A stretch of 64,000 nt of DNA from Crossiella equi (GTDB taxonomy: Bacteria > Actinomycetota > Actinomycetes > Mycobacteriales > Pseudonocardiaceae): NCBI RefSeq assembly GCF_017876755.1, contig NZ_JAGIOO010000001.1:8231786-8295785 (forward strand), in the 5' to 3' direction. Below the pieces are notes generated by a model, which saw nothing but the letters and a program-made list of their open reading frames with translations, ran no database searches and was not told the DNA's origin. A program made the translations under genes and the position numbers. This document shows positions 37,913-46,806 of the stretch, in pieces. Each line of letters opens with the position of its first letter. Position 1 is the first letter of the stretch.

Positions 37913-38560
37913 CTACAACGCCTTCGCCTGGGCCAGCGCGCTCTCGGTGAACGGTGTCACCTGCGGCAGGTCGTGCCCCAGCCGGTCGCGCTTGGCGCGC
38001 AGGTAGGCGATGTTGTGCTGGTTGGCGGGCACCACCAGCGGCACCCGGCCGACCACGGGGATCCCGTTCTCGGTCAGCGCCGCCAGCTTGTCGGGGTTGT
38101 TGGACAGCAGCCGCACCGAGCGCACACCCAGGTGGTGCAGGACCAGGGCGGCCGGGCTGTAGTCGCGGATGTCGACCGGGAAGCCGAGCGCGGTGGCCGA
38201 GTCGATGGTGTCCAGACCCTGGTCCTGCAGCACGTGCGTGCGCACCTTGGCCACCAGGCCGATGCCCCGGCCCTCGTGGCCGCGCAGGTAGACCAGGACC
38301 CCGGCGCCCTCCCGGACGAGGGCGTCGAGGGAGCCCGCCAGCTGCTCACCGCACTCGCACCGCATCGCGCCGAAGACGTCCCCGGTCAGGCATTCCGAGT
38401 GCACCCGCACCAGCACGCCGCTGCGCCCGCGGACCTGGCCGCGGACCAGTGCCATGTGCTCGTGCCCGTCCGCGCGGAAGGCGACCGACCGGAAGGTGCC
38501 CCGGCGCGTGACCAGTTCGGACTCCGCGACGTCCTCGCCGCGCAAGCTCTGCTCGTTCAT
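37913..38560 (-). CDS. GTP cyclohydrolase II variant (RibA-like, Tyr to His)
   Basis: 215 aa, single-domain GCH II (no RibB fusion). Zinc cysteines C57, C68 and C70 are in HSECLTGDVFGAMRCECG; the substrate loop RGHEGRGIGL and SNNPDK are present. GCH II opens GTP and releases formate and pyrophosphate. E. coli RibA has Tyr105 in KIRAYALQDQG; here the aligned residue is His109 (KVRTHVLQDQG). In Streptomyces SCO6655 a change at this Tyr (to Met) makes the enzyme stop at the formylated product FAPy. So this may not serve riboflavin. ATG 38560 follows GAGGAGG; divergent from the QueD-like gene. Confidence 0.9.
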   Translation of the reverse strand: MNEQSLRGEDVAESELVTRRGTFRSVAFRADGHEHMALVRGQVRGRSGVLVRVHSECLTGDVFGAMRCECGEQLAGSLDALVREGAGVLVYLRGHEGRGIGLVAKVRTHVLQDQGLDTIDSATALGFPVDIRDYSPAALVLHHLGVRSVRLLSNNPDKLAALTENGIPVVGRVPLVVPANQHNIAYLRAKRDRLGHDLPQVTPFTESALAQAKAL

Positions 38561-38646
38561 GACCCTCCTCATCCCCAACCGGCCGGGGCAGCACTACCCT
38601 CGGCCGGAGGCCGCACGTTCCCTCTTCCCGTACCCCGGAGGTCGCC

Positions 38647-39045
38647 CTGTTCAGCATCACCGTTCGTGACCACGTGATGGTCGCCCACAGTTTCCGAGGT
38701 GCGGTCTTCGGTCCGGCACAACGCCTGCATGGAGCTACGTTCGTGGTGGACGCCAGGTTCAGCCGCGCCGAGCTCGATTCGGACAACATCGTCGTGGACA
38801 TCGGGCTGGCCACCGAGCAGCTCAAGGACGTGCTGGCCCCGCTGAACTACCAGAACCTCGACGAGCTGCCCCAGTTCGCCGGGACCAACACCTCCACCGA
38901 GTTCCTGGCCAAGCACATCGCCGACACACTGGCCGAGCGCGTGCACGCCGGGGCGCTGGGCGAGGGCGCCCGCGGCCTGGCCGGGATCGAGGTCTCACTG
39001 CACGAGTCGCACGTGGCCTGGGCCTCCTACCAGCGTGCCCTCTGA
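38647..39045 (+). CDS. QueD/PTPS-like protein with altered active site, CTG start
   Basis: 132 aa T-fold protein. It opens [17 protein letters not shown], continues [16 protein letters not shown] and closes with [11 protein letters not shown], the pterin-binding Glu strand. In PTPS/QueD enzymes three His bind zinc and a Cys is catalytic (C-x2-L-H-G-H). Here His14 and His28 remain, but the Cys is Ala24 and the third His is Ala30, so canonical chemistry is unlikely. The start is probably CTG 38647: GGAGG lies at 38637-38641 with a 5-nt spacer, and the domain begins at the next codon. The first ATG (38674) would remove the first strand. Confidence 0.8.
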
Positions 39046-39057
39046 CCGCCCACTCCG

Positions 39058-40050
39058 GTGACCGTCCACTTCGTCGTACCCGACCCGGCGGTGCCCAGCG
39101 GCGGCAACGCCTACGACCGCCGGGCCGGGCACGCGCTCGGCCTCGCCCGGACCGTGCTGCCCGGCCCCTGGCCCCACCCGGACGGGGCAGCCCGTGCCGC
39201 GTTGGCACAACTGCTCACCGACTACCCCGACGGCGACGTCGTGCTGCTGGACGGCCTGATCGCCTGTGCGGTCCCGGACCTGCTCCAGCCGCACGCCGAC
39301 CGCCTGCGGCTGGCGGTCCTGGTGCACCTGCCCCTGGCCGACGAGACCGGCCTGGACCCGTCCACCGCGGCCCGGCTGGCCGCCGCCGAACGGCGCAGCC
39401 TGCACCTGGCGCACGCGGTCGTGGCCACCAGCCCGGCCGCCGCCCGCGACCTGGCGGCCCGGCACGGCCTGCCCCGCGTGCACGTGGCCGAACCGGGCGT
39501 GGACCCCGAGGACCTGGCCGAGGGCACGGACGGCGTCTCGCGGCTGCTGTGCGTGGCCTCGGTGACCCCGCGCAAGGGCCACGACCTGCTGATCCGCGCC
39601 CTGGCCGCGGCCCCGGGCCCGTGGCGGCTGCGCTGCGTGGGCCCGCTCCCACCCACCCCGCACACCGAGCACGTGCGCGCGCTCAGCCGCGACCTGCCGG
39701 TGCACTGGCTCGGCCCGCGCACCGGGGAGGCCCTGGCCGCCGAGTACCGTGCCGCCGACCTGTTCGTGCTTGCCTCGCACACCGAGACCTACGGCATGGT
39801 GGTCACCGAGGCACTCGCCCGCGGCCTGCCGGTGCTCGCCAGCGCCGTGCCGGACGCCCTGGGCGAGGGTGGCCTGCTGCTCCCCCCGGGTGATCTCGCC
39901 GCCTGGACCGCGGCGCTGCGCCGCTGGTGCACCGACCCGGAGCTGCGCCACGACCTGCGCACCGCCGCCCGCGCCCGCCGCGCGCGGCTGTCCACGTGGG
40001 ACACGACCGCACGACAGCTCGGCGAGGTCCTGGCTACCCTGCGCGCATGA
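39058..40050 (+). CDS. GT4-family glycosyltransferase
   Basis: 330 aa GT-B enzyme. The donor half has LLCVASVTPRKGHDLLIRALA, then the E-x7-E motif TETYGMVVTEALARGLPVLAS (retaining GT4). The N-terminal half begins VHFVVPDPAVPSGGNAYDRR, close to mycothiol/PIM-type transferases. No membrane helix. GTG 39058 is 12 bp after the QueD-like stop. The stop overlaps the methyltransferase ATG (ATGA), so both are translated together. In this cluster it is the likely sugar-adding step. Confidence 0.9.
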   Translation: MTVHFVVPDPAVPSGGNAYDRRAGHALGLARTVLPGPWPHPDGAARAALAQLLTDYPDGDVVLLDGLIACAVPDLLQPHADRLRLAVLVHLPLADETGLDPSTAARLAAAERRSLHLAHAVVATSPAAARDLAARHGLPRVHVAEPGVDPEDLAEGTDGVSRLLCVASVTPRKGHDLLIRALAAAPGPWRLRCVGPLPPTPHTEHVRALSRDLPVHWLGPRTGEALAAEYRAADLFVLASHTETYGMVVTEALARGLPVLASAVPDALGEGGLLLPPGDLAAWTAALRRWCTDPELRHDLRTAARARRARLSTWDTTARQLGEVLATLRA

Positions 40051-40835
40051 GCTACAGCCCGGAATGGTTGGCACTGCGCGAGAACGCCGATGCCGAAGCC
40101 CGTGCCACCGACCTGCTCACCCCCCTGCGCGCGGCCCTGGCGGGCCAGGACCGGCCGGTGGTCCGCGACCTGGGCTGCGGCACCGGCTCGCTCGCGCGCT
40201 GGCTCGCCCCGCACCTGCCCGGCCCCGCGCACTGGGTCCTGCACGACGTGGACGCCGACCTGCTCGCCCACGCCGAGGCCGATCTGCGCGGCCGGGGCTT
40301 CTCGGTGGAGACCAGGCTGGGCGACCTCGCCGACCTGCGCGCGGAGCACTTCGCGGGCACCTCGCTGGTGGCCGCCTCCGCGCTGCTGGACATCCTGACC
40401 GAGCCGGAGGTGAACGGACTCGCCGCCGCCATCGTAGGAAGCGGTGTGCCTGCCTACTTCTGCCTCTCGGTGTCGGGGAAGACCCCCCTGGACCCGGCCG
40501 AGCCCCTGGACACCGCGTTCCAGGAGGCCTTCAACGACCACCAGCGGCGCGAGCACGACGGCCGCCGCCTGCTGGGCCCGGACGCGCCCGAGGCCGCCAC
40601 GCGCGCCTTCGAACGGCTCGGCGCCCGCGTGCACACCAGCCCCAGCCCCTGGCGCCTGGGCCCGGACAAGCCGGAGCTGACCGGGACCTGGCTGCGCAAC
40701 TGGGTGGCCGCGGCCGTCGAGCAGGAGCCCGCGCTGGCCGCCGACGCCCCCGCCTACCTGGCCCGCCGCGCCGCCACCCCGCACACCGCCGAGGTCGGCC
40801 ACGTCGACCTGCTGGCCCTGCCCGGGGCGGCGTGA
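40047..40835 (+). CDS. Class I SAM-dependent methyltransferase
   Basis: 262 aa. SAM motif I is VVRDLGCGTGSLARWL, followed by the acidic strand end WVLHDVDADLLAHAEADL and a motif II region SLVAASALLDILTEPEV. The C-terminal half (AFNDHQRREHDGRRLLGPDAPEA) is the acceptor lid and is typical of this cluster type. Starts at ATG 40047, overlapping the glycosyltransferase stop by 4 bp. Probably methylates the intermediate made by the neighbouring enzymes; the position (O, N or C) cannot be told. Confidence 0.9.
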   Translation: MSYSPEWLALRENADAEARATDLLTPLRAALAGQDRPVVRDLGCGTGSLARWLAPHLPGPAHWVLHDVDADLLAHAEADLRGRGFSVETRLGDLADLRAEHFAGTSLVAASALLDILTEPEVNGLAAAIVGSGVPAYFCLSVSGKTPLDPAEPLDTAFQEAFNDHQRREHDGRRLLGPDAPEAATRAFERLGARVHTSPSPWRLGPDKPELTGTWLRNWVAAAVEQEPALAADAPAYLARRAATPHTAEVGHVDLLALPGAA

Positions 40836-41761
40836 TGCGCGGCCTCTGGCCCTGGCTGCGGCTGCTCGCCGCCCTCGCCGTGATCACGCTGCTGGCCGTG
40901 CGCCTGGGCACGGACGCCGTGTTGGACGGTCTGCGCGCGGTGAGCGCCCCGGCCGCCTTCGCCGCGCTCGGGCTGGGCCTGCTGACCACGGTGGCCTGCG
41001 CGTACCGGTGGCGGCTGGTGGCCAGGGGCCTGGGCCTGCCGCTCACGCTCGGCCAGGCGGTCGGCGACTACTACCGGGGCCTGCTGCTCAACTCGGTGCT
41101 GCCCGCCGGGATCCTCGGCGACCTGCACCGCGCGCTCAGCCACGGCCGCCAGTCCGGCGACCTCGGCAAGGGTGTGCGCGCGGTGGTGCTGGAACGCTTC
41201 GCCGGGCAGGCCGTGCTGATCACGATCGGCCTGGGCGTGCTGGCCACCACCAGCGTGCCCGGCCTGGACCTCGGGCCCACCCTGCTGTGGCTGGTGCCGC
41301 TGCTCGCGGTCGCGCTGCTCCTCCCGCCGGTGCGCCGGGTGCTGACCCGCACCCTCACCGACGCCCGCGCGCTGGCCACCCGCGACACCCTGCCCGGTGT
41401 GCTCGGACTCTCCGCCGCGGCGGTCGCCGGGCACGTGCTGCTGTTCCTGCTCGCCGCGCACCTGGCGGGCGTGCGGGCCGGGGTGTTGGAGCTGGTGCCG
41501 CTGGCCGTGCTGACCCTGCTGGTGATGGCGGTCCCGGTCAACGTGGGCGGGTTCGGTCCGCGCGAGGCCTTCCTCGCGGTGGCCTTCGGCGCGGCCGGGT
41601 TCGGCGCGGAGCAGGGCCTGACTACCGGCGTGGTGTACGGCGTGCTGGCCCTGGTGTCCGCGCTGCCCGGGATCCTGCCGCTACTCCTGCCGCAGCGCGG
41701 AGAGGGTCAGCCCGAACGCCTCGACCAGCCCCGCGAGCACGTCCTCGCCCTTGCGCGCTGA
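40835..41761 (+). CDS. Lysylphosphatidylglycerol synthase-type TM protein (YbhN/UPF0104)
   Basis: 308 aa with about seven to eight membrane helices. It has the family loops YRWRLVARGLGLPLTLGQAVGDYYRGLLLNSVLPAGILGD and VPVNVGGFGPREAFLAVAFGAAG. This is the flippase-like half of MprF proteins without the synthase domain; relatives move lipids or lipid-linked sugars across the membrane. ATG 40835 overlaps the methyltransferase stop by 1 bp (TGATG). The last 81 bp overlap the convergent creatininase gene, so the C-terminal tail after the last helix is dispensable-looking. Confidence 0.88.
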   Translation: MRGLWPWLRLLAALAVITLLAVRLGTDAVLDGLRAVSAPAAFAALGLGLLTTVACAYRWRLVARGLGLPLTLGQAVGDYYRGLLLNSVLPAGILGDLHRALSHGRQSGDLGKGVRAVVLERFAGQAVLITIGLGVLATTSVPGLDLGPTLLWLVPLLAVALLLPPVRRVLTRTLTDARALATRDTLPGVLGLSAAAVAGHVLLFLLAAHLAGVRAGVLELVPLAVLTLLVMAVPVNVGGFGPREAFLAVAFGAAGFGAEQGLTTGVVYGVLALVSALPGILPLLLPQRGEGQPERLDQPREHVLALAR

Positions 41762-42373
41762 GGCCAGCGAGGGCCGCCCGATCACGCCGGAGTCGGTGTA
41801 GGCCGACATCCCCAGCGTCAGCAGGTGCCGCCGCTCGTCGGAGACGTGGTCCGCGCTTTCGTAGCCGGGCCGTACGACCTCGGGGTTGGTGTGCAACAGG
41901 ATCGAGGTCTCGATCTCCCCGGCGTGCATGTCCGAGCGCGAGCTCGTCGCCAGTCCGGCCCGCGCGCGGGCGTCCGCCCAGTCGGGGGAGCCGGGGAACA
42001 GCGCCAGCCCGGTGCCCTCCTGGACCACGTTGGACAGCACGTAGTTGCCGCCGTGTCCGTTGACCAGCACCAGGTTCGGCACGCCGTCGCGGCGCAGCGA
42101 CCCGGCGATGTCACGCACCACCGCGTACAGCGTGGGCGCGGAGATGCTGACCGTGCCGGGCCAGGCGTTGTGCTCGTGGGAGCAGGAGATGGTCAGCGGC
42201 GGCAGCAGCCGCACCGGGTAGGCCCGCGCCAGTGCCCGGGCGATCGCGCAGGCGATGAGCGTGTCGGTGGCCAGCGGCAGGTGCGGCCCGTGCTGTTCGT
42301 GGCTGCCCACCGGCAGCAGCGCGACCGTGGCCCCGGCCGCGCGCACGTCCTCGGTGGTGTCAGTCGGCAACAT
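41681..42373 (-). CDS. Creatininase-family amidohydrolase (ArfB/MftE-like)
   Basis: 230 aa. Metal sites: E25-x-H27 in GSHEQHGPHLPLATDT, the NGHGGN motif and MHAGEIETS. The family includes creatininase, the mycofactocin peptidase MftE and the archaeal formamide hydrolase ArfB, which deformylates FAPy. With no mycofactocin genes here and a FAPy-type cyclohydrolase in the same cluster, an ArfB-like role is the best guess. ATG 42373 overlaps the upstream dehydrogenase end by 14 bp, so they share a minus-strand transcript. Assignment of substrate is inference. Confidence 0.87.
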   Translation of the reverse strand: MLPTDTTEDVRAAGATVALLPVGSHEQHGPHLPLATDTLIACAIARALARAYPVRLLPPLTISCSHEHNAWPGTVSISAPTLYAVVRDIAGSLRRDGVPNLVLVNGHGGNYVLSNVVQEGTGLALFPGSPDWADARARAGLATSSRSDMHAGEIETSILLHTNPEVVRPGYESADHVSDERRHLLTLGMSAYTDSGVIGRPSLASARKGEDVLAGLVEAFGLTLSALRQE

Positions 42374-43331
42374 AGTCGATCCGGTGGCACAGGGCGGGGA
42401 TCTCCCCGCTGGCGATCCTGGGAAAGACCTCGGGCAGCTCGTCGAAGAGGCTGTGCCCGGTGAGCAGCGCGTCGAACCTGTTGTCGGCCAACAACTCCAG
42501 GGTCAGCGCCATCCGTTCGGCGTAGCTGCGGTCCGGGCGGGCGACGGTACCGACCTGGCTGGCGCGCAGCCGCAGCCGCCGCGAGTGGAAGAACTCGCCG
42601 AGCGGTACGCGCACCTGGCGGTCGCCGTACCAGCTGAGCTCGACCACCCGCCCCTCCGGCGCGAGCAGGCCCAGCGAGGTGGCCAGGCCCGCCTCGGAGG
42701 CGCTGGCGTGCACCACGAGATCGCAGTTCCCGGCGGCTTCCCCGGGGCTGGCGAACGGTACGCCCAGGGCCTGCGCGAGCGCGGCGCGGGCGGGGTCGGC
42801 GTCCACCAGCTGGAGCCGCACGCCCGGGAAACGCGCCAGCAGCGCGGCCACCGAGCCGCCGACCATGCCGCCGCCCACCACCGCGATCCGGTCGCCGAGC
42901 AGCGGGGCCGCGTCCCACACCGCGTTCACCGCGGTCTCCACGGTGCCCGCCAGCACCGCCCGCTCCGGCGGCACCCCGTCCGGGACCACGGTCACCGCGC
43001 TGGCCGGGACGACGTAGCGGGTCTGGTGCGGGTACAGGCAGAACACGGTGCGCCCGGCCAGCTCCGCCGGACCCTCCTCAACCACGCCCACGTTGAGGTA
43101 GCCGTACTTCACCGGCCACGGGAACCCGCCCTCCTGGAAGGGCGCCCGCATCCCGTCGTACTGGCTGGCGGGCACGCCGCCGCGCAGCACCAGCGTCTCG
43201 GTACCCCGGCTGATCCCGGTGTGGAGGGTGCGCACGAGCACCTCGTCGCCGCACCGCTCGGGCAGCTCCACATCACGAATCGAAGTTTTCCCGGAATCGA
43301 TGACCCAAAGTGCCCTTGCCCAACGTTTCAC
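42360..43331 (-). CDS. Medium-chain dehydrogenase, BchC-like, no catalytic zinc
   Basis: 323 aa MDR enzyme. The N-terminal HTGISRGTETLVLRG replaces the usual Cys-containing zinc motif, as in BchC-like proteins. The NAD(P) site is VVGGGMVGGSVAALLARFPGV followed by VDADPARAALA. It ends LTGHSLFDELPEVFPRIASGEI. GTG 43331 follows GGAGG; 33 bp separate it from the divergent CDP-alcohol transferase. Its 3' end overlaps the creatininase. It probably oxidises or reduces an alcohol or side chain of the cluster product. Confidence 0.85.
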   Translation of the reverse strand: MKRWARALWVIDSGKTSIRDVELPERCGDEVLVRTLHTGISRGTETLVLRGGVPASQYDGMRAPFQEGGFPWPVKYGYLNVGVVEEGPAELAGRTVFCLYPHQTRYVVPASAVTVVPDGVPPERAVLAGTVETAVNAVWDAAPLLGDRIAVVGGGMVGGSVAALLARFPGVRLQLVDADPARAALAQALGVPFASPGEAAGNCDLVVHASASEAGLATSLGLLAPEGRVVELSWYGDRQVRVPLGEFFHSRRLRLRASQVGTVARPDRSYAERMALTLELLADNRFDALLTGHSLFDELPEVFPRIASGEIPALCHRIDYVAD

Positions 43332-43364
43332 CAGAGGAACCTCCGAGACAGCGGTGAGGGACCG

Positions 43365-44096
43365 ATGATCACACTCCACCACACCACGGCGTCCGCGGTA
43401 CGCGAGCACGCCGCGTGGGCAGCGACTCACATCCTCGTACTGGGCATCCTGAACAGCACGGTCGGCCTCGGCCCGGGTGGCTGGATCGCCGGAATGGCCT
43501 ACACCGTTGCCACGGTGGCACTGGTTGCCGGTGCCCTCGCCCGCTCGGGCGGACGGCTGGGACCCGCGGACCGCGTCACCCTGGGCCGGGGTGTGCTCGT
43601 CGCGGCGGTCACCGCGCTCATCGTCGACCGGCTCGGCCAGGACGTGCCGACCGCGCTGCTGGTGGCCCTGGCCGCGGTCGCGCTCACCGGGGACTTCGTG
43701 GACGGCCAGGTCGCCCGCCGCACCGGCACCGCGACCGCGTTCGGGGCGCGCTTCGACATGGAGGTCGACGCGTTCCTCATCCTGGCGCTGAGCGTGCAGG
43801 TCTCCCTCACCCACGGCCCGTGGGTGCTGGTGATCGGCGGCATCCGCTACGCCTTCGTCGCCGCCTCCTGGTGGCTGACCTGGCTGCGCGCACCGCTGCC
43901 GCACAGCATGGCCCGCAAGGTCGTCGCGGCCGTGCAGGGCGTGGTGCTGACCATCGCGGCCGCCGGGATCGTGCCCCTGTCCGGGCTGCTCGTGGAGCTG
44001 GCCCTGCTCTCCCTGTTGTGGTCATTCGGCCGCGACACCGCCTGGCTGTGGCGGCGTGCGGTCGCAACCCTGGAAGGATCCACCAGCCATGTCTGA
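43365..44096 (+). CDS. CDP-alcohol phosphatidyltransferase
   Basis: 243 aa with about six membrane helices. The family signature D-G-x2-A-R-x8-G-x3-D-x3-D is complete in DFVDGQVARRTGTATAFGARFDMEVD. Such enzymes join a CDP-activated alcohol (usually CDP-diacylglycerol) to a hydroxyl acceptor at the inner membrane. The acceptor here is unknown. ATG 43365. The stop overlaps the next start by 8 bp. Within this cluster it suggests a phospholipid-like or phosphodiester-linked final product. Confidence 0.9.
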   Translation: MITLHHTTASAVREHAAWAATHILVLGILNSTVGLGPGGWIAGMAYTVATVALVAGALARSGGRLGPADRVTLGRGVLVAAVTALIVDRLGQDVPTALLVALAAVALTGDFVDGQVARRTGTATAFGARFDMEVDAFLILALSVQVSLTHGPWVLVIGGIRYAFVAASWWLTWLRAPLPHSMARKVVAAVQGVVLTIAAAGIVPLSGLLVELALLSLLWSFGRDTAWLWRRAVATLEGSTSHV

Positions 44097-44538
44097 CGCC
44101 GCCACCACCGCCCGCACCGGGGGGATCGCCCGCACCATCGGGCTCACCCTGCTCTGGCTCGTGCAGATCGCGCTCGGCGCGTACCTCGCCTACTCCGGCT
44201 ATCTCCTGTTCGGCCCCAACTTCGTGGGCAAGTTCGACAAGATCGGCTTCGGCCAGTGGCTGCGCTACGTCACCGGTGTGCTGGAGATGGCGGGCGGGGT
44301 CGGCCTGCTCGTCCCGCGCGTGTGCGGGTTCGCCGCGCTGCTGGTGACCGCCGTGATGGGCGGGGCCGCGTTCACCGAGCTGGTGCTGCTGGGCGACAAC
44401 GGCGGCGCGGTGCTGCCCGCGCAGCTGGCCGGGGTGGCGCTGCTGGTGGCGCTGCTGCGCGGGCGGGAGACGGTGGCGACGGTCAGCCGTCTCGTTTCGG
44501 GAAGTAGCGCAGCACGGCCACGTCCCCGAGCTTCGTGA
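44089..44538 (+). CDS. DoxX-like membrane protein
   Basis: 149 aa with four membrane helices. TIGLTLLWLVQIALGAYLAYSG, then F-D-x-I-G-F-G-Q-W-L-R-Y-V-T-G-V-L-E-M-A-G-G-V as a DoxX signature, and two more hydrophobic spans. Family members often accompany membrane redox enzymes; no direct activity is known. ATG 44089 overlaps the CDP-alcohol transferase stop. The last 56 bp overlap the convergent RibD-C gene, after the last helix. Confidence 0.85.
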   Translation: MSDAATTARTGGIARTIGLTLLWLVQIALGAYLAYSGYLLFGPNFVGKFDKIGFGQWLRYVTGVLEMAGGVGLLVPRVCGFAALLVTAVMGGAAFTELVLLGDNGGAVLPAQLAGVALLVALLRGRETVATVSRLVSGSSAARPRPRAS

Positions 44539-45160
44539 CCTCCTCCAGGTGGAACCGGCGGGCCGGGCCGCCCGGGAACTCCGCCGGGTGCAGGAACCGG
44601 GGTGCGAGCGCCTGGCCGATGAACATGGGCGCCACGGCCAGGCGGATCTCGTCGGCCAGGCCCTGGGCGAGGAAGGCGGTGTGCACCTGACCGCCGCCTT
44701 CCACCATGAGCCTGCGCACGCCCCGCGCACCGAGGTCGTCCAGCACGGCCCCGAAGCTCAGCTCGGGGCCAAGCGGCACGACTTCGGCCAGCCCGCCCAC
44801 CGCCGCGGTCGCGGGCTGGAAGCCGGAGTCGGTGGTGTAGACGAGCTTCCGGTCGCCGCAGTGCCAGAACTTCGACTCCGGTGCCAGGTCGCCGGAGCTG
44901 GTCACGGTGACCTTCAGCGGGTACTCGGGCTGACCGGCCGCGACCCGCGCCGCCCGGCGGTGCTCGCGGTTGACCAACAGGCGGGGGTTGTCGCGGCGTA
45001 CCGTGGCGGCCCCGACCAGGATGGCGTCGGACTCGGCACGCACCTGGTCGACCTGGTCGAAGTCCTCGGTGTTGGACAGCGGGAACCGTTGTGCGCTCAC
45101 GTCATCGAGGAAGCCGTCCACACTGACGGCAACGCTCAACAGCACATGCGGACGCGTCAT
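44483..45160 (-). CDS. RibD C-terminal-type reductase (ArfC/HTP reductase-like)
   Basis: 225 aa dihydrofolate-reductase-fold protein. It has HVLLSVAVSVDGFLDDVS, DAILVGAATVRRDNPRLLV, the NADPH turn LMVEGGGQVHTAFLAQGLADEIRLAVAP and a closing L-E-E-V-T-K-L-G-D-V-A-V-L-R-Y. No deaminase domain is attached, as in archaeal/fungal reductases that act before the deaminase. It would reduce a ribosylamino-pyrimidine to the ribitylamino form. ATG 45160 starts right at the first strand; longer forms would cover the sulfatase promoter. With the GCH II variant and creatininase it completes an ArfA-B-C-like set. Confidence 0.88.
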   Translation of the reverse strand: MTRPHVLLSVAVSVDGFLDDVSAQRFPLSNTEDFDQVDQVRAESDAILVGAATVRRDNPRLLVNREHRRAARVAAGQPEYPLKVTVTSSGDLAPESKFWHCGDRKLVYTTDSGFQPATAAVGGLAEVVPLGPELSFGAVLDDLGARGVRRLMVEGGGQVHTAFLAQGLADEIRLAVAPMFIGQALAPRFLHPAEFPGGPARRFHLEEVTKLGDVAVLRYFPKRDG

Positions 45161-45201
45161 TGCCGTGACGTTACCCGCGCACTGGGGAAAGGACGACGTC
45201 C

Positions 45202-46806
45202 ATGCCGGGGGAACCGAGCCAGCTCCGCCGTGCCCTGGGGTGGGCCGGGACCGCGCTGGCGGCGCTGCTGGTGCTGTTCGCACTGCTGTCCCCGCACGAC
45301 GCGGACGAGTTCACCGCCTCGGCCTTCGCCCGACTGCCGGTGGAGGGCCTGCTGGGCGTGCTCGTGCTGCTGGTGCTGCCGGGCCGCTGGCGCCGGATCA
45401 CCGGGCTGGCCGCGGGTGCGCTGCTCGGCCTGGTGACCGTGGTGAAGCTGCTGGACCTGGGCTTCGACGCGGTGCTGTTCCGGCCGTTCGACCTGGTGCT
45501 GGACTGGCCGCTGCTGGGTCCGGCGGTGGACTTCGTGCGGACCACGATGGGCCGCCCGGTGGCGATCCTGGTGCAGGCCTTGGCTATCGCGCTCGTGGCG
45601 GGCCTGGTGGCGCTGTGCGCCCTGGCGGTCCGGCACCTGGCGGTCCTGCTGGCCCGCCGCCGCGCGGCGGTCATCCGGGTGGTCGCCGCGCTGGCCGTGC
45701 TGTGGCTGCTGGGCGCGGTCCCGGCCTCGACCGGCGGGGTGACCGCCTTCCTCGCCCAGCACGCGGTCCAGGTGCGGAAAGGCTTGGCGGACAGGGAGGA
45801 GTTCGCCCGCCAGACCGCGGTGGACCCCTTCCGCGCCACGCCGGGCGGTGAGCTGCTGGGCGCGTTGCGGGGCAAGGACGTGCTGGTGGTCTTCGTGGAG
45901 AGCTACGGCCGCGACGCCCTGGACAACCCGGCCCTGGCCCCGGCCATCACCCCGTTGCTGGACAACGGTTCCCGCGAGCTGGCCGAGCTGGGCTACCGCT
46001 CCCGCAGCGGTTTCCTGACCTCCCCGACGGCGGGCGGCGGCAGCTGGCTGGCCCAGGCGACCCTGTTGTCGGGCCTGTGGATCGACAACCAGCAGCGCTA
46101 CCAGACCCTGGTCGCCAGCGACCGCCGCACCCTCACCTCGGCCTTCCACGACGCGGGCTGGCGTTCGATCGGCGTGGTCCCGGGCATCACCCGGGCCTGG
46201 CCGGAGGGGGAGTTCTTCGGCTACGACCGCATCTACGCGGCGGCCGACCTGGGCTACCGGGGCCCGCGCTTCGGGTTCGCCACCGCCCCGGACCAGTTCA
46301 CCCTGTCGACCTTCCAACGCGCCGAACGCACCCCGGGCGACCGGACCCCGGTGATGGCGGCGATCCCGCTGGTGACCAGCCACGTGCCGTGGACCCCGAC
46401 CCCGGCCCTGCTGCCGTGGGACGGCCTCGGCGACGGCTCGGTCTATGACTCGATGCCCTCCGGCGGCGGCCCCCCGGCGGGCCTGCTCGGCCGTTCCCAG
46501 GAGCAGGTCCGCGCGGACTACCGCACCTCGCTGTCCTACACGCTGTCCACGCTGGTGTCCTACGTGCGCACCCACGGCGACGACGACCTGGTCCTGCTGT
46601 TCCTGGGTGACCACCAGCCCAACCAGGCCGTCACCGGCACCGGCGCCTCGCGGGACGTGCCGGTCACGGTGGTGTCGAAGGTGCCGGTGGTCGAAGCGCG
46701 CAGCGCGGAGTGGGGCTGGACGGAGGGCCTGCGGCCGGGCGCGGGGGCCCCGGTGTGGCCCATGCACACCTTCCGGGACCGCTTCCTGGCCGCGTTCGGC
46801 CGGTGA
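45202..46806 (+). CDS. LTA-synthase-like membrane sulfatase/phosphoglycerol transferase
   Basis: 534 aa. Four to five N-terminal membrane helices (to about residue 170) precede an extracytoplasmic sulfatase-fold domain starting KDVLVVFVESYGRD. The nucleophile region SPTAGGGSWLAQATLLSGLW carries a Thr, as in phosphotransferases of the LtaS/OpgB type rather than Cys sulfatases. Metal sites continue in VTSHVPWTP and LLFLGDHQPN. It may transfer or remove a phospho-alcohol group outside the membrane. ATG 45202 is 41 bp from the divergent RibD-C start. Last gene of the putative cluster. Confidence 0.85.
   Translation: MPGEPSQLRRALGWAGTALAALLVLFALLSPHDADEFTASAFARLPVEGLLGVLVLLVLPGRWRRITGLAAGALLGLVTVVKLLDLGFDAVLFRPFDLVLDWPLLGPAVDFVRTTMGRPVAILVQALAIALVAGLVALCALAVRHLAVLLARRRAAVIRVVAALAVLWLLGAVPASTGGVTAFLAQHAVQVRKGLADREEFARQTAVDPFRATPGGELLGALRGKDVLVVFVESYGRDALDNPALAPAITPLLDNGSRELAELGYRSRSGFLTSPTAGGGSWLAQATLLSGLWIDNQQRYQTLVASDRRTLTSAFHDAGWRSIGVVPGITRAWPEGEFFGYDRIYAAADLGYRGPRFGFATAPDQFTLSTFQRAERTPGDRTPVMAAIPLVTSHVPWTPTPALLPWDGLGDGSVYDSMPSGGGPPAGLLGRSQEQVRADYRTSLSYTLSTLVSYVRTHGDDDLVLLFLGDHQPNQAVTGTGASRDVPVTVVSKVPVVEARSAEWGWTEGLRPGAGAPVWPMHTFRDRFLAAFGR

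Follow-up and report, generated by a model that had tools for sequence, protein, structure and literature searches.

A conserved actinobacterial gene cluster around a PTPS-IV protein, with a probable archaea-like route of GTP opening

Gene content and layout of the cluster

We analysed a 64,000-nt stretch of the Crossiella equi genome (NCBI RefSeq assembly GCF_017876755.1, contig NZ_JAGIOO010000001.1, positions 8,231,786 to 8,295,785 of the forward strand), below called the window. The host genome comprises 9.44 Mb on one contig. Between positions 37913 and 46806 of the window lie eleven genes, among them those for a GTP cyclohydrolase II (GCH II), a QueD-like protein of the PTPS-IV type, a creatininase-fold enzyme, an MDR-type dehydrogenase (MDR) and a glycosyltransferase of family GT4. 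On balance, we read this set as a biosynthetic cluster, conserved among actinobacteria, in which GTP is opened in an archaea-like way. A first-pass annotation, made from the sequence without database searches, had named eleven families here; Pfam matches and open reading frames place all of them where it put them, two only weakly by Pfam, and every gene overlap that it quoted is present.

The genes are closely packed. The GT4 stop codon, ending at 40050, overlaps the methyltransferase ATG at 40047, and the methyltransferase stop codon (40833-40835) overlaps the YbhN ATG at 40835. The creatininase and MDR genes have 14 bp in common (42360-42373), the genes for the CDP-alcohol phosphatidyltransferase (CDP-OH) and the DoxX protein 8 bp (44089-44096), and tail-to-tail overlaps join YbhN to the creatininase gene and DoxX to RibD_C. 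As the genes lie on both strands, they do not form one operon. The gene order is the one seen in the Lentzea and Saccharopolyspora loci. Riboswitch control was looked for with Rfam, with no match in the window region and just two tRNAs in seven relatives.

Two start codons deserve mention. The GCH II frame opens at 38578 with TTG, and we prefer the ATG at 38560. For the PTPS-IV gene, the most likely start is a CTG (38647-38649) that stands behind a GGAGGT (region 38637-38649); among the 37 relatives listed, the same codon is ATG, GTG or TTG, except in L061, where it is also CTG.

Table 1 Genes of the cluster in window positions. FAPy, 2-amino-5-formylamino-6-ribosylamino-pyrimidinone 5′-phosphate; SAM, S-adenosylmethionine.
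Gene product	Position	Strand	Match and remark
GCH II (RibA-like), Tyr-less type	37913..38560	-	PF00925 GTP_cyclohydro2, 198 bits; predicted to stop at FAPy
PTPS-IV (QueD-like, FGPAQ type), SCO6650 orthologue	38647..39045	+	PF01242, 76 bits; probable CTG start
GT4 glycosyltransferase, distantly MshA-like	39058..40050	+	PF13692 (Glyco_trans_1_4, 84 bits) / PF00534
SAM-dependent methyltransferase	40047..40835	+	PF13649 (Methyltransf_25, 39 bits)
YbhN / LPG_synthase_TM flippase-like membrane protein	40835..41761	+	PF03706, 86 bits
Creatininase-fold amidohydrolase, predicted FAPy deformylase	41681..42373	-	PF02633, 212 bits; coupling with Tyr-less GCH II
MDR-type dehydrogenase, distantly BchC-like, core gene	42360..43331	-	ADH_zinc_N, 22 bits (cut-off 32), weak
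CDP-alcohol phosphatidyltransferase (CDP-OH)	43365..44096	+	PF01066 CDP-OH_P_transf, 45 bits
DoxX-like membrane protein, probably passenger	44089..44538	+	PF13564 DoxX_2, 42 bits
RibD_C reductase, ArfC (archaeal/fungal) type	44483..45160	-	PF01872, 124 bits; deaminase domain unmatched
LTA-synthase/phosphoethanolamine-transferase-like membrane enzyme	45202..46806	+	Sulfatase, 17 bits (cut-off 25); conserved motifs

Conservation across actinobacteria

The QueD-like protein was searched in 200 genomes of the same order, 58 of which were positive, this genome included. Neighbourhoods of up to 20 kb were taken from 37 of these 58, several of them ending at contig edges. Another 40 came from 39 of the 57 positive genomes in a class-wide sample of 394, and 80 further loci are the best 80 of 575 confirmed in GTDB contigs. 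With the window this yields 158 loci, an uneven sample in that the 80 best-scoring loci are mostly from Streptomyces.

Profile searches of these 158 PTPS-IV loci detected the MDR gene in 157, GT4 in 156, CDP-OH in 145 (a corrected figure; the best-hit table undercounts fused CDP-OH), YbhN in 141, the methyltransferase in 132, GCH II in 120, the creatininase in 96, the LTA-synthase-like gene in 48 and the reductase in 43. Between open frames, 4 bases separate MDR from PTPS in the median and 0 separate PTPS from GT4; the spacing exceeds 1 kb for 6 of 157 MDR-PTPS pairs and for 1 of 156 PTPS-GT4 pairs. At an identity of at least 55%, MDR was found in the same 58 of the 200 order-sample genomes as PTPS-IV, a count from which MDR relatives at 36-41% identity in five further genomes were left out. 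Chance association is excluded, because MDR, PTPS-IV and GT4 stand together in nearly all 158 loci and in many families. The cluster is a conserved unit with the core MDR-PTPS-GT4. The first-pass reading would have been refuted had homologous genomes not kept the genes together; their co-occurrence in these loci across many actinobacterial families shows that they do.

DoxX, counted as a member at first, occurs in 3 of 158 loci and was rejected as a passenger; the reductase and the LTA-synthase-like gene belong to the cluster at some loci and are often absent from others. The genes flanking the cluster in the window (VanY, beta-lactamase, phytase-like, DUF6292, DEAD) each recur in one to three of the 158 loci. 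An MFS transporter recurs in 7 of 41 loci and further families in fewer; these were rejected as part of the core, and one recurrent family of 9 loci as well as several others look like open frames on the wrong strand. Relatives were also looked for in viral contigs, and none was confirmed.

The fragmented genome G586 carries two PTPS-IV cores on separate contigs (L194 and L195). The MDR match contains one in-frame TGA in each of G050 (L056) and G188 (L047), reflecting decay, a frameshift or a sequencing error.

The GCH II tyrosine site is coupled to the creatininase

The window GCH II has a His at the site matching Tyr105 of the solved GCH II 2bz0, the E. coli enzyme. The three zinc cysteines and the equivalent of Arg128 are kept in all 95 Tyr-less and all 24 Tyr-bearing cluster GCH II proteins. 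SCO6655, which has a Met at the Tyr105 site, reportedly yields FAPy instead of releasing formate, according to Spoonamore and Bandarian and co-workers. With zinc cysteines and Arg128 kept and Tyr105 replaced, the window enzyme is predicted to be FAPy-forming, of the SCO6655 type.

The residue at this site goes with the creatininase. Where a creatininase gene adjoins, Tyr is absent from all 94 cluster GCH II proteins (Met 71, His 16, Leu 5, Gln 2); among the 25 without such a neighbour, Tyr is present in 24 and Leu in one. In G908, the Leu exception, a creatininase of the cluster type does exist (C1:3221866-3222537); it lies about 13 kb from PTPS-IV and about 16 kb from GCH II, outside the 20 kb neighbourhood taken. 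L070, whose GCH II frame continues from YbhN, was left out of these counts; it reads Met and has a creatininase. An earlier, smaller set gave Tyr absent in 78 of 78 cases beside a creatininase and present in 14 of 14 without, the other GCH II of the own genome (L079) being left out of the latter count. In a control, all 24 non-cluster GCH II proteins (2 from the own genome, 22 from others) have the Tyr and the 8 cluster copies of the same set lack it. At the genome level, a cluster-type creatininase (at least 65% identity) was found in 7 of 7 genomes with a Tyr-less GCH II and in none of the 13 others examined. The first-pass reading would also have fallen had the RibA-like enzyme been the sole GCH II of the genome and complemented riboflavin auxotrophy while the rest varied freely. 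It is not the sole one: the own genome has three, and another GCH II is present in all 13 genomes examined with a cluster copy.

On a tree of MDR, PTPS and GT4, built by a quick method from 129 of the 158 loci and thinned to 81, Tyr loss and creatininase each change six times. Supported branches give four independent pairs, and the two traits change together in each of them (six pairs if unsupported branches are included). The creatininase threshold in this scoring was 300 bits, so that L092 counted as lacking it, and L211 (present) and L070 (Met) were set by hand. The coupling supports a conversion of GTP to FAPy and on to a deformylated pyrimidine. As read from the sequences, this is a replacement picture, in which loci hold either the pair of Tyr-less GCH II and creatininase or a single complete GCH II.

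An ArfC-like reductase accompanies PTPS-IV genome-wide

The reductase scored 129 bits with the archaeal model TIGR01508, the best of seven NCBIfam models matched, versus 77 bits with full-length RibD, and no deaminase domain was matched in it by Pfam. Among the solved proteins nearest to it are 5xux, 6p8c and 2azn. In the order sample it was detected (E 1e-25) in 56 of 58 PTPS-IV genomes versus 15 of 142 PTPS-IV-negative ones, lying away from the cluster in at least 19 of the former. Near the cluster in L056, L222, L224 and L136, a Tyr-type GCH II and RibD_C share one open frame.

From these enzymes, the common early product reads as 2,5-diamino-6-ribitylamino-4(3H)-pyrimidinone 5′-phosphate. 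The first-pass order of events, from GTP over a formylated pyrimidine to deformylation and reduction, agrees with the Tyr/creatininase coupling, the co-occurrence of the reductase and the GCH II-reductase fusions.

PTPS-IV lacks the catalytic residues of PTPS

The QueD-like protein is the orthologue of SCO6650, solved as PDB 3d7j (E 1.8e-64). In PTPS, a Glu anchors the pyrimidine ring, and the third zinc His, a Cys and an Asp-His pair are catalytic. Across 20 diverse rows of the alignment, Glu119 is invariant, the HGH of PTPS is invariantly HGA in a motif without Cys, and the DH of DHRNLD/DHKNLD is lost, with Tyr, in two rows Arg, at the His site. The second PTPS of the own genome retains CxxxHGH and LDH. 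PTPS or QueD chemistry is not expected because the catalytic residues are missing; we rejected a normal PTPS/QueD function, and the first-pass idea of a remodelling by such chemistry falls with it. SCO6650 is said, in a report by Spoonamore and co-workers, to be without zinc and without PTPS activity. By its residues, PTPS-IV should bind a pyrimidine or pterin. The protein contains FGPAQ (FGPSQ in 2 of the 20 rows), which the account of the group in PMC5445326 gives as the PTPS-IV signature.

Tailoring and membrane genes

MDR matches the BchC model with 44 bits and GT4 the MshA model with 61 bits, both far below cut-off. Because MDR and PTPS-IV are nearly inseparable, we place them on the same intermediate. 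The methyltransferase has a conserved DlG.GtGs stretch and shares one frame with GT4 in L224; L121 is alike but lies at a contig edge.

The window CDP-OH sequence contains DxxDGxxARx(8)GxxxDxxxD, the motif of CDP-alcohol phosphatidyltransferases, and its stretches D..DG..AR, GARFD and E.DA are conserved. In eight loci (L052, L057, L061, L190, L193, L203, L206 and L216) CDP-OH and the LTA-synthase-like gene form one open frame. Pfam scans of the fused frames of L052, L061, L190 and L216 confirmed the CDP-OH half and left the other half unrecognised at E 0.001. LTA synthases and phosphoethanolamine transferases have a sulfatase fold with a metal-site Glu, a Ser/Thr nucleophile and a DH pair. In the LTA-synthase-like protein the stretches esyg, sw, sh.pw and gdhqp are conserved at ≥80%, and it matches the LTA primase in PDB weakly (E 0.63). 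We assign it tentatively on account of these motifs and of the frame shared with CDP-OH in eight relatives. The fusions and the conserved motifs support a phospholipid-linked step; the product may be lipid-anchored, decorated with a phospho-alcohol or simply exported.

Proposed pathway

In the pathway that we propose, the GCH II without the formate-releasing tyrosine would convert GTP to FAPy, the creatininase would strip the formyl group, and the ArfC-like reductase would turn the ribosylamino into a ribitylamino group, yielding the diaminopyrimidinone phosphate named above. In some lineages, a single complete GCH II would take the place of GCH II and creatininase. Taken together, these three steps appear quite likely.

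For the fourth step, the core pair MDR and PTPS-IV would act on the ribitylamino compound. MDR may oxidise one of the hydroxyls on the ribityl chain. PTPS-IV, a T-fold that binds pyrimidines but has no PTPS zinc site, may hold the substrate during closure of a pterin-like ring by the 5-amino group. With oxidation at C2′, the product would be similar to 7,8-dihydroneopterin 3′-phosphate, which is chemically reasonable, with other positions possible. We put this ring closure forward tentatively. GT4 would then add a sugar and the methyltransferase a methyl group. Finally, CDP-OH, the LTA-synthase-like enzyme and YbhN might link the product to a phospholipid, or take a phospho-alcohol from one, and move it outward, a lipid arm that we hold with low confidence.

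Read to its end, the pathway could lead to a new class of compound on the outer membrane face: a pterin-like molecule bearing a sugar and a methyl group and linked to a lipid or a phospho-alcohol. It would be made from GTP without GCH I, via an archaeal-type ribitylamino-diaminopyrimidine, oxidation by MDR and closure on a zinc-less PTPS fold. This reading as a whole is possible rather than probable.

Several observations weigh against the pathway. A sign test on the four pairs gives p 0.125, with few independent events, and the Tyr-less GCH II proteins may form a single clade (approximately unbiased (AU) test, p 0.51), the cluster copies of the Tyr type falling mostly in another, well-supported clade; the coupling therefore rests on few independent events. 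GCH II is missing from 38 of the 158 loci. L092 has a divergent creatininase (263 bits) and no GCH II within 20 kb, and L080, at a contig edge, a creatininase without GCH II in the stretch. The creatininase reaches the cut-off of neither NCBIfam model, MftE TIGR03964 (138 bits, cut-off 172) nor ArfB NF033501 (32 bits, cut-off 180), and the own genome has a Tyr-type GCH II with a different creatininase (36% identity) about 4 kb away. The reductase scores under the TIGR01508 cut-off of 186 bits. At E 1e-25 it was missed in G022 and G050, the latter having a divergent RibD_C fused to GCH II (L056), and the 15 PTPS-IV-negative genomes with a reductase include at least three with partial matches. 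The Streptomyces-like genomes of family f18 have it outside the cluster, next to another GCH II in four of five (L298-L301, not L302), at a site that we take to be the SCO2687 region. On the tree, its presence in the locus has no consistent relation to the creatininase. The missing catalytic residues of PTPS-IV make the chemistry of the fourth step uncertain.

Two of these cases were viewed in their surroundings. The GCH II/creatininase pair of the own genome occupies 7318-14444 of L077 (C1:1571000-1590900), with AbgT transporter and MarR genes nearby; we regard it as separate from the cluster and perhaps as a pterin or folate-breakdown locus. For 6 of the 15 PTPS-IV-negative genomes the reductase loci were fetched (L312-L317), and other cluster genes were seen in none. 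The PTPS-IV-negative genomes may use the same intermediate in another pathway.

Alternative explanations

The alternative that survives best concerns the lipid arm. The product could be a soluble, secreted pteridine or pyrimidine glycoside acting as a signal, pigment or redox compound, with the membrane genes serving export only and the lipid unattached. This fits the near-universal core of MDR, PTPS-IV and GT4 (157, 158 and 156 of 158), the lack of CDP-OH and the LTA-synthase-like gene at some loci, and the profiles of L220-L223, which comprise MDR, PTPS and GT4 only, plus GCH II in L222. However, CDP-OH is present in 145 of 158 loci, fused with an LTA-synthase-like domain in eight and conserved in its active-site stretch, which points to a phospholipid step as a regular part of the pathway. 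We rate such a glycoside as a real but minority possibility.

The creatininase could, instead of deformylating FAPy, be an MftE-like peptidase or amidase acting on a late intermediate, since MftE is its best curated model. However, it follows the Tyr site of GCH II almost exactly and is absent where a complete GCH II fills the slot. A late enzyme is not expected to track that residue, which disfavours a late-step role, and we consider it unlikely.

Still less probable is a backup supply of riboflavin or folate under special growth conditions, the remaining genes being unrelated neighbours. GCH II and RibD_C are indeed riboflavin enzymes, the ribityl compound could give rise to a pterin, and certain PTPS types serve folate synthesis, as stated in a passage of PMC5041015. 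On the other side, a passage of a metabolic-model study (PMC2853524) reports expression opposite to the predicted flux for SCO6655 and SCO2687 (r -0.61 and -0.52), which is weak evidence. GT4, methyltransferase, YbhN, MDR and CDP-OH accompany the set in most of the 158 loci, a second GCH II is present in each of the 13 genomes examined with a cluster copy, and the reductase is without a matched deaminase domain.

Cofactor F420, whose synthesis draws on a riboflavin intermediate, was rejected as the product and is hardly credible, as all 16 genomes examined, 8 with PTPS-IV and 8 lacking it, have the F420 synthase CofH above cut-off, and no F420 genes were recognised among the recurrent neighbour families, judged by sequence starts without a CofH search of the loci. 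The connection goes back to a passage of PMC5041015 that ties PTPS-IV to F420 on unpublished work.

Comparison with known systems

The pathway is real, conserved and only partly described. The first-pass term "undescribed system" goes too far in one respect: the PTPS-IV group of COG0720 has printed PF00925 and RibD_C (PF01872) neighbours, as cluster 62 in the neighbourhood network of a 2017 paper (PMC5445326), the text of which names PF00925 as GTP cyclohydrolase I/FolE2, the family being GCH II in Pfam. The passages on PTPS-IV in that paper mention neither a product nor GT4, MDR, creatininase, CDP-OH, the LTA-synthase-like gene or the Tyr/creatininase coupling. The term stands for the product, which was not found in the open PubMed Central (PMC) literature, a search that left subscription journals mostly outside. 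The Tyr/creatininase coupling, the reductase as a genome-wide partner, the strict MDR-PTPS-GT4 core and the fusions were not found in that literature either.

Since many Streptomyces and further actinobacterial families retain the set, its compound should matter to these organisms. Of the two proteins studied from this neighbourhood, SCO6655 has reportedly passed for an unusual GCH II and SCO6650 for a PTPS without activity; the Tyr loss coupled to the creatininase and the archaeal-type reductase give them a common substrate and a testable pathway. The lipid arm, if true, would connect pterin chemistry with the cell envelope.

In archaea, ArfA, ArfB and ArfC perform the opening steps towards riboflavin and F420. 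The cluster resembles this route in the conversion of GTP to FAPy, deformylation by a creatininase fold and reduction by a RibD_C-only enzyme before deamination. In contrast to ArfA, FAPy would come from a Tyr-less GCH II; the creatininase is not ArfB by sequence, and the pathway probably does not lead to riboflavin, another GCH II being present.

In the toxoflavin and fervenulin pathways, a GCH II, a RibD-like enzyme and a methyltransferase make an azapteridine from GTP. Compared without a search for Tox genes, the cluster differs from these in its partners PTPS-IV, MDR, GT4 and the membrane lipid enzymes.

Among the closest systems is the SCO6650-SCO6655 neighbourhood of Streptomyces coelicolor, a likeness which the first-pass annotation had drawn around SCO6655 and with which the 3d7j orthology fits. 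It is very probably the same cluster, as the named Streptomyces loci carry the set. Compared with the Streptomyces loci, the window has the reductase and the LTA-synthase-like gene within the locus and, at the Tyr site, a His where they have Met; the LTA-synthase-like gene does occur in a few of them.

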